A stretch of DNA of 64,000 bases. It comes from Merdimmobilis hominis (GTDB lineage Bacteria; Bacillota; Clostridia; Oscillospirales; Ruminococcaceae). The stretch lies in contig NZ_LT629939.1 in NCBI RefSeq assembly GCF_900104615.1, positions 377,238 to 441,237 on the forward strand. Direction: 5' to 3'. The position numbers were made by a program, and so were the translations under genes. Under the pieces are notes generated by a model that saw only the letters and a program-made list of their open reading frames with translations, was not told the origin of the DNA and searched no databases. The first letter of the stretch is position 1, and each line of letters begins with the position of its first letter. Below, piece by piece: positions 23,155 to 53,336 of this stretch.

Positions 23155-23435
23155 TAAAAAAGGCTTTCGTCTTTCTTGTAATCCAAGAAGACGAAAGCCT
23201 AATATACTTCCGCGGTACCACTTCTATTGCATGAACCATGCCGCTTTGCCGTGTCAAAAAACACGTTCCCCTGTAACGATGGGAATTCGTCCCTACCTAC
23301 TACTAGTTCAGCGGGCCACTCGAAGGTGAGTTCACACAATGCCTGCCAACCGCATTCCAGCTACCTGCGGCTCTCTGTATGGACATTGACACTGGCTACT
23401 TATCCTTGTCACTGCGTTTTGCTTTTGTTATGTTG
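23155..23435 (-). promoter_or_regulatory. T-box riboswitch leader, probable leucine specifier (CUC)
   Basis: Minus-strand tRNA-sensing leader. In order: Stem I start GACAAGGATAAGTAG, the AGAGAG bulge, the specifier region GTGTGAACTCACC with CUC at 23330-23328, the linker AGTAGGTAGGGACG, the T-box GAAGTGGTACCGCGG (TGGT at 23220-23217) and a strong terminator stem AGGCTTTCGTCTT/AAGACGAAAGCCT plus TTTTTT. UGGU pairs with a tRNA ending ACCA, which suits tRNA-Leu. Thr (ACU) or Ser (UCA) by a one-base shift are less likely. The next good gene downstream is the transporter, about 580 bp away. Confidence 0.9.
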
Positions 23436-52158: not shown

Positions 52159-52187
52159 TTGAGTTTTGAATCAGCCCATGGTACAAT
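52159..52187 (+). promoter_or_regulatory. promoter of the tandem RNA
   Basis: TTGAGT (52159-52164), 17-bp spacer, TACAAT (52182-52187), plus strand, directly before the first hairpin of the repeat RNA. Confidence 0.65.
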
Positions 52188-52440
52188 GATCGCAGGGCGA
52201 TCATTGGGGAAGAAATCCTTGTCGGGCTGAGAGCCCTCCTGCGGCAAGGCCGCATTAGGATTTTTCCAGCCTGTGGAGATTTTTGGTATACAGACCACAG
52301 CGGGGCTGTGGCATTCGAAGAATTGCTTGCAGGGCAAAGCCCTTTGCGGCAGGGGCCGTACCGCAATTCTTATCGTTTGTGCAGACTTTATGGTAGAATA
52401 ACCGCAGGGCATCCTTGGGGGATATACCCCCGCACGCTGA
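52188..52440 (+). ncRNA. candidate structured RNA: two full and one partial copy of a ~106-nt repeat
   Basis: Each full copy has hairpin H0, then a closing stem P1 that encloses two hairpins P2 and P3. Copy 1: H0 TGATCG/CGATCA, P1 52213-52219 with 52257-52263 (AAATCCT/AGGATTT), P2 GGGCT/AGCCC, P3 GCGGC/GCCGC. Copy 2: H0 CCACAGC/GCTGTGG (52295-52311), P1 52318-52326 with 52363-52371 (AAGAATTGC/GCAATTCTT), P2 GGGC/GCCC, P3 GCGGC/GCCGT. P1 and H0 differ in sequence but keep pairing. A third start (TGGTAGAATAACCGCAGGGC) follows at 52391, then GGGGG/CCCCC. Function unknown: tandem riboswitch for the TM2 gene or small RNA. Confidence 0.6.
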
Positions 52441-52515: not shown

Positions 52516-52944
52516 ATGTTCTGTCGAAATTGTGGCGGCCACCTGGATGAAGGCGACCGTTTTTGTAAGAAATGCGGCGCCCCCTCCACTGCAGCGGGCC
52601 GCTGTTGCCCCAACTGCGGCCTTCCCCTCCCTCCGGGATGCACCATCTGTCCCCGGTGCAATTCCCAGGTGGGGGACGGCCAAGGCATGCCCTTCTTCCC
52701 CCCGCAGAAATCCCGGCTCATCGCCGGTTTGCTGGCCATCTTTGTAGGGAGCTTGGGCATCCACAACTTTTACCTGGGATATAACGACCGCGGCCTTCTG
52801 CAAATCCTGCTGACCACCGTGGGTTCTATCTTCACCTGCGGCTTATCCGCCGGCGCAGTGGCCATCTGGGCCCTGGTAGAAGGGATTATGCTCCTCACCG
52901 GAAACATCGCCGTGGATGCAAATGGCATCCCCTTAAAAGACTAG
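52516..52944 (+). CDS. zinc-ribbon and TM2-domain membrane protein
   Basis: 142 residues. Two zinc ribbons in the first 55 residues: CRNC (3-6) with CKKC (17-20), and CPNC (32-35) with CPRC (46-49). A TM2 domain follows at about 68-135 with two spans and the signature GSLGIHNFYLGYNDRGLLQILL. TM2 proteins are small membrane proteins of mostly unknown role; zinc-ribbon versions are common in Firmicutes. ATG 52516 has only a weak ribosome site (GAAAGAG), which would suit control by the upstream RNA. It precedes rnpB on the same strand. The topology suggests the ribbons face the cytoplasm. Confidence 0.88.
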   Translation: MFCRNCGGHLDEGDRFCKKCGAPSTAAGRCCPNCGLPLPPGCTICPRCNSQVGDGQGMPFFPPQKSRLIAGLLAIFVGSLGIHNFYLGYNDRGLLQILLTTVGSIFTCGLSAGAVAIWALVEGIMLLTGNIAVDANGIPLKD

Positions 52945-52980: not shown

Positions 52981-53330
52981 ATGCGAGTAAGCGATACAAC
53001 AGCGGGCACAAAGCCGAAAGGCTGTGCGTGAGGAAAGTCCGGGCTTCACAGGGCAGGATAGCTGTTAACGGCAGCCGAAGGCGACTTTAGGGACAGTGCA
53101 ACAGAAAGATACCGCCACGCAAGTGGTAAGGATGGAAAGGCGAGGTAAGAGCTCACCAGCGGGCAGGCGACTGCCCGGCTATGTAAACCCTATCCGAAGC
53201 AACACCGCATAGGAGGGCATGAAGCGGCGGCCCGTCGCGTCCTCGGGAAGGTGGCTGGAGCCGTGCGGCGACGCACGGCCTAGATAGATTGTTGTTTGAT
53301 ACAGAACTCGGCTTATCAGCTTAGTCGCAT
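52981..53330 (+). ncRNA. rnpB: RNase P RNA (type A)
   Basis: Catalytic RNA that matures tRNA 5' ends. Conserved parts in order: GAGGAAAGTCCGGGCT, CAGGGCAGGATAGCTG, GGGACAGTGCAACAGAAA, GTAAGGATGGAAAGGCGAGG, TAAACCCTATCCGAAGCAAC, and near the 3' end GATACAGAACTCGGCTTATC. P1 is formed by ATGCGAGTAAGC at the 5' end and GCTTAGTCGCAT at the 3' end, which sets the limits. About 350 nt, normal for type A. Followed directly by a terminator. Confidence 0.98.
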
Positions 53331-53336
53331 TTATAT

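Follow-up and report, generated by a model that had tools for sequence, protein, structure and literature searches.

Palindromic repeats derived from IS200/IS605 elements, like REP elements, combine a folded-strand architecture with a target-like sequence at the right end. Among other small repeats, BOX of Streptococcus pneumoniae is described, in the accessible part of the source (PMC3049150), as short, modular, tandem-growing and strongly folded, and it has been proposed to be mobile without an enzyme of its own. The same part of that report states that BOX is transcribed together with neighbouring genes, that it has terminal inverted repeats and target duplications, and that pneumococcal repeats are over-represented between convergent genes. 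A MITE of Candidatus Thiomargarita nelsonii, a large hairpin repeat with TATAG direct repeats, was compared with Correia elements in the available section of its description (PMC4853749). As far as the accessible portions of these sources go, the nearest known kinds to the element reported here are the BOX, RUP, SPRITE and Correia repeats (PMC3049150, PMC10969869), and we found no description of the present repeat family in the open-access literature.

The element was found in a 64,000-nucleotide stretch of the Merdimmobilis hominis genome, hereafter the window, whose positions 52179-52431, by direct reading of the sequence, hold two complete units, each about 105 nt long, followed by a truncated third (Table 1). 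The original prediction had placed GGTA marks at 52180, 52285 and 52392, a promoter ahead of the first copy and, in each full copy, a hairpin H0 followed by a closing stem P1 enclosing hairpins P2 and P3. Direct reading reproduced the marks and the promoter, and the fold was recovered in both full units by sequence reading and inverted-repeat listing. The P1 proposed for the first copy exists, but the AAATCCT/AGGATTT given for it was too short, the longer stem being GGAAgAAATCCT / AGGATTTTTCC with one bulged G. The statement that no known riboswitch or small RNA could be recognized also held, as no Rfam model matched the units, whether gathering thresholds or a cut-off of E ≤ 10 were applied; two matches at E ≤ 10 in the region fall outside the units, and the element likewise went unmatched in 20 further loci. 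The folding energy of the whole stretch was only moderately better than that of shuffled sequences (z -2.18, 3 of 100 shuffles as good). Two other RNAs lie in the window: a class A bacterial RNase P RNA (52984-53331, +; Rfam, 288 bits), directly 3' of the TM2 gene and preceded by a promoter-like TTGACA-17-TACAAT, and a T-box leader (23184-23421, -; Rfam, 113 bits).

Table 1 Features of the tandem units and their surroundings, in window coordinates (H0, P1, P2 and P3 are the stems of a unit)
Feature	Position	Strand	Sequence, basis or remarks
Host promoter	52159..52187	+	-35 TTGAGT 52159-52164, 17-nt spacer, TACAAT 52182-52187; extended -10 (C)ATGGTACAAT ends at 52187; pattern common to other loci
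Unit 1, subfamily A	52184..52290	+	Right end reaches next -10; family alignment A3; model match C3:429416-429520
Unit 1 H0	52184-52206	+	CAATGATCGC 52184-52193 / GCGATCATTG 52197-52206
Unit 1 P1	52208-52219 / 52257-52267	+	Inverted-repeat listing, direct reading
Unit 1 P2	52224-52227 / 52233-52236	+	Direct reading
Unit 1 P3	52240-52245 / 52249-52254	+	Direct reading
Internal -10-like sequence, unit 1/unit 2 junction	52284..52292	+	TGGTATACA; equivalent position in other arrays
Unit 2, subfamily B	52293..52390	+	Right end TTTGTGCAGACTTTAT; 91% identical copy at another locus; model match C3:429521-429626
Unit 2 H0	52295-52301 / 52305-52311	+	Inverted-repeat listing, direct reading
Unit 2 P1	52318-52326 / 52363-52371	+	Inverted-repeat listing, direct reading
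Unit 2 P2	52331-52335 / 52339-52343	+	Direct reading
Unit 2 P3	52346-52350 / 52355-52359	+	Direct reading
Extended -10-like sequence, unit 2 right end	52391..52399	+	TGGTAGAAT; likewise at right ends of other copies
Truncated, decayed third unit	52400..52431	+	H0 remnant behind TGGTAGAAT; 76% identical to unit 1 start; truncated right-hand copies elsewhere
Downstream gene, zinc-ribbon TM2-domain protein	52516..52944	+	142 aa; TM2 PF05154, E 2.2e-13

The same units are dispersed through the 2.58-Mb genome. BLAST with the region returned 53 matching pieces, the self match included, the covariance model gave 71 matches at E ≤ 0.1, and a two-unit profile run over the window and 35 fetched loci delimited 34 near-full units, 30 of them distinct. 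There are two main subfamilies, A (the type of unit 1) and B (the type of unit 2), and the closest dispersed copies reach 91% identity to unit 2 by BLAST. Single units occur, as do arrays of two or three and truncated right-hand copies; some A units contain a nested module (L050, L055, L065, L068, L069), and P2 is absent from some relatives (L243, L246). Thirty-two H0 sites, some lacking the other parts of a unit, fit one pattern with at most three mismatches, and a reversed-pattern control gave 0. In being short, dispersed, multi-copy and without coding capacity, these units of about 105 nt resemble a MITE. Since copies are dispersed, nested and truncated on the right, mobility is suggested, and we consider that the tandem pair with its remnant is probably a non-autonomous dispersed mobile repeat of about 105 nt, with selection on its folded strand and insertion at the -10/start junction. 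One copy counts against this reading: in L053, the left arm is of type B and the right arm of type A, which breaks P1. The odd B-like/A-like units L064 and L071 were omitted from one unit alignment, and L053 also from another.

Two observations concern the surroundings of individual copies. A solo H0 behind TGCTACAAT lies directly 5' of a cobalamin riboswitch (L075 2337-2560, -), so that a remnant of the repeat forms the start of the riboswitch transcript. On the contig G000:C3 of the same genome, copies with equal scores form four pairs, the members of each being about 2.8-3.0 kb apart (near 2389800/2392770, 2436600/2439450, 2520300/2523250 and 2529400/2532450); in three of the pairs the two copies are identical, and the arrangement resembles a duplication of gene blocks that each have an element of their own.

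The left boundary was compared at 35 distinct loci, that is, the 41 located minus four mislocated or rearranged ones and two duplicates. The first unit follows TGnTAnAAT, an extended -10, with all fixed positions in 33 of the 35 (the exceptions being CGGTATAAT and TGGGAAAAT), a figure favoured by the procedure, which located the boundary via the best match to this pattern near the unit. H0 lies directly 3' of the located match in the 35 rows; a purine precedes the match in 35/35, and a T precedes the purine in 29/35. The n of TGn is G in 22 loci, C in 8, A in 3 and T in 2, and varies as if host-supplied. A -35-like hexamer (at least 4 of 6 positions of TTGACA) stands 16-18 nt upstream in 17 of the 35 loci, compared with a mean of 4.0 and a maximum of 11 in 2000 shuffled sets of flanks. 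About ten cases of the same motif without a unit were seen by eye in the fetched DNA. These element-free copies, together with the promoter-like flanks, favour insertion into existing promoters. Counting against it are L044 and L052, which lie at stop codons of upstream frames with no evident promoter; judging from the translations, these frames are presumably mnmE-like and leuS-like, respectively. The next long frame behind L052 is convergent, and this copy therefore leads no gene. The usual distance from -10 to +1 would put the transcription start inside H0, so that in the first unit H0 may matter as DNA.

Across copies of differing sequence, H0, P1, P2 and P3 keep their pairing. Nine A units contained 27 compensatory cells (shuffled mean 9.1, 0/500 shuffles; slid controls at most 5), with a covariation of 0.287 versus 0.132, and 15 more varied units contained 40 (shuffled mean 14.7, 0/500; slid controls at most 12). 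For 14 units of the genome G195, aligned without the model, there were 74 (mean 26.8, 0/500), with a covariation of 0.474 and slid controls at most 0.148; all these shuffles ignore the relatedness of the units. No excess of covariation appeared in the 18 B units alone, which are too alike, and the number of pair types was not above that of shuffles in the A units, the 15-unit set or the G195 units. Counts from the A6 alignment are not independent evidence, as this alignment was fitted to the model. The compensatory changes support selection on structure at the level of the family, as the original prediction had proposed. The contrast between units 1 and 2 that it had cited did not arise at this site, because these units represent subfamilies A and B, each of which is dispersed.

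A conserved fold 5' of genes might instead mean that the units are functional leaders used across the genome, or many small RNAs, which bind a common protein, RNA or metabolite and tune many genes; transcription would begin at the upstream -10, and the P1(P2,P3) RNA would be the binding part. In line with this, the units as a rule have a promoter on one side and a same-strand gene on the other, their stems show compensatory change, and the mismatches in P1-P3 lean toward G-T over A-C (14 versus 5), as for sense RNA. In H0, inside which the start sites would fall, G-T and A-C mismatches are about equally frequent (6:8 in B; 15:11 across 29 A-type sites, namely the 32 minus two duplicates and one shifted match), which speaks against such leaders. 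So do the downstream genes. We compared 20 same-strand downstream proteins with clear frames, a non-random choice in which the 35 loci contributed 18 and L051+ and L070 the other two. Eighteen of the 20 scored above the Pfam cut-off and shared no common theme, their families being TM2, UvrC, Tex, phosphorylase, EF-G-like with YacP, two metallophosphatases (one SbcD), CAAX protease, ThrE, YaaA, SpoU methylase, AddB, methyltransferase, MntP, peptidase C26, FAD-binding, zinc ribbon and EAL-GGDEF. Genes as unrelated as uvrC, tex, addB and mntP thus stand behind the units, which are not confined to genes of one pathway as would be expected of a riboswitch of the TM2 gene. Copies also occur at stop codons (L044 and L052, and in G195), and unit number and truncation vary greatly. 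We regard functional leaders as an unlikely explanation. A free small RNA made at this locus, the other option of the original prediction, is a possibility.

In well-kept copies the right end reads GCAGACTTTrTGGTAnAAT and is followed by unique sequence or a truncated unit. Because this end carries TRTGGTAnAAT, the gene leader is once more preceded by a -10. Left and right TAnAAT shared their variable base in 16 of the 23 single-unit loci inspected by eye, a set without tandem or truncated loci (expected 9.2, p 0.0017); among the 12 loci whose right ends were clearest, 8 agreed (expected 5.0, p 0.07). In the genome G032, 11 of whose 12 matches were fetched, the duplication comparison was borderline (p 0.047 and 0.068; 9 of the 11 loci used). 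This agreement is suggestive of a target duplication of about five bases (AnAAT). By eye, the terminal inverted repeats of a MITE were not seen: the ends, H0 on the left and GCAGACTTT on the right, are not inverted copies, and the P1 arms are internal. Their absence weighs against an ordinary double-stranded-DNA MITE that would bring its own left promoter, with TGGTACAAT as part of the element, be kept 5' of genes by selection and fold only incidentally. Known repeats such as Correia do carry promoters and sit before genes, according to the accessible part of the source (PMC10969869), and TACAAT is over-common at the left boundary (TAC in 26/35). However, in 17 of the 35 loci the -35 hexamer lies in unique flank at the right distance, TGn varies, and stems covary in place of a conserved terminal sequence, all of which makes a promoter-bearing MITE of this ordinary type improbable. 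The tandem riboswitch or other RNA element for the TM2 gene that the original prediction had proposed agrees with the presence of two structured units directly 5' of that gene, but it is very unlikely in view of copy number and context, as identical unit types precede many unrelated genes, single units are common and Rfam offers no match.

The mobile repeat that we prefer would insert where the -10 meets the start site and might duplicate some five bases (AnAAT). The gene would regain a -10 at the old distance, so that the insertion would be tolerated, and further insertion at the rebuilt target would produce tandem arrays. As the stems covary while their sequence drifts, the folded strand may be the recognized form, and the moving machinery would then recognize a folded single strand, either DNA or RNA. 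Doubling of the promoter, together with the structured leader, would be the source of any effects on expression. The mobility enzyme may have been lost from this genome. Y1 transposase (PF01797) gave 0 matches in this genome (G000), G195, G240 and G098, and RVT_1 reverse transcriptase was not found in G000, G032, G195 or G240; the lack of both in G000 counts against the mobile repeat. Y1 transposase matches were present in G032, G099, G120 and G139; the Y1 loci of other genomes were without a unit, with one match at E 1.3. The matches in G032 number 34, many of them fragments at contig ends, which suggests a high-copy IS breaking the assembly.

A search of other genomes with a covariance model, as the original prediction had suggested, yielded relatives in other genera with the pairing kept. 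The fold was detected at E ≤ 0.001 in at least 10 of 297 family genomes, its own included (at least 9 of 296 others), a lower bound given the strict filters and the 13 candidates scored per genome. Model matches numbered 12 in G032, 11 in G195, 10 in G139 and 4 in G240, and in five further genomes there were between one and three, all weak; the least certain of these (G009, G106, G120, G098 and G099) have best E values of 9e-5 to 8e-4 and are doubtful when taken singly. TRTGnTAnAAT precedes the units at 3/3 loci in G240, two in G098, one in G099 and one in G120, an agreement that is partly circular because the model includes those columns. In G195, 6 of 7 loci begin -1 to +4 nt from a stop codon, that of a frame on the same strand with 96 or more codons; at four of these six, the (T/A)ATAG with which the unit starts contains the TAG that serves as the stop, so that the unit may supply it. 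The G032 units lie just upstream of start codons, with a GAAAGG- or AAAAGG-type stretch and ATG after the unit in 8/10 loci, and by eye a purine-rich stretch stands before most of them.

Searches by sequence found little outside the genome. BLAST in 60 relatives returned RNase P only, plus two short weak matches, one of which (59 bases, G032:C23) is a true relative according to the covariance model. BLAST with one B unit in 395 other family genomes matched four genomes, and these matches were rejected as coding DNA or other hairpins. Exact patterns gave no match in the species genome collection and viral contigs, nor did blastn in phage and plasmid records, all collections that may omit records near this genome. 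The 14-mer GTTTGTGCAGACTT, whose matches in viral contigs are uninformative, occurs in 13 of 396 family genomes, twelve of them others, eleven having it once and G378 twice. No other genome of the genus appeared among the 60 relatives (BLAST) or the 396 family genomes (14-mer), and hence no empty site was seen, which counts against the mobile repeat. Several other repeats came to light in these genomes. A different hairpin repeat in G378 (L077, L087, L088, L093, L098) contains TTGTGCAGACTTAT, close to the right-end motif of the element, and its hairpin arms differ among copies yet pair. In G098, at least five tandem repeats of about 112 nt, each starting TGGTATAATAGCCGC, may be a minimal form of the element (L301 862-1527). 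In G139, tandem repeats of about 156 nt have a core matching the P1(P2,P3) part of the model (L296 1107-2250).

We can only tentatively suggest that these relatives form a superfamily of structure-defined mobile hairpin elements in Ruminococcaceae that insert at boundary signals of gene expression and rebuild them. The core fold would be kept while end modules and target differ by lineage, the targets being the -10 (its own genome, G240, G098, G099, G120), the Shine-Dalgarno/start region (G032) and the stop codon (G195). If the mobile repeat is real, one genome has had many of its promoters invaded by an element whose insertion within the promoter leaves it standing. Many genes would thereby have acquired natural tandem promoters and structured leaders, and a mobility system that reads a folded strand would be indicated. 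A covarying structure 5' of a gene need not mean a riboswitch.

The element resembles the IS200/IS605-derived repeats and REP elements in its folded strand and target-like right end. Unlike the repeats mobilized by IS200/IS605, it comes without a Y1 transposase in its own genome, G195 and G240, and a short target duplication, should it be real, would be out of keeping with such repeats. Its likeness to BOX is architectural only (short, modular, tandem-growing, folded), as the present copies lie behind -10 boxes, in gene sense and without clear terminal inverted repeats, in contrast to what the accessible part of the BOX report describes (PMC3049150). The (T/A)ATAG start of the G195 copies recalls the TATAG-type ends of the Thiomargarita MITE, from which, as the available section presents it (PMC4853749), the present element differs in host, sequence and context. 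Correia and other promoter-bearing MITEs are likewise small, lie just 5' of genes and bring promoter sequence, as far as the accessible text reports (PMC10969869); unlike Correia as portrayed there, the present element has a left -10 that appears to be the host's, a right end that supplies a replacement -10, and a fold that covaries.
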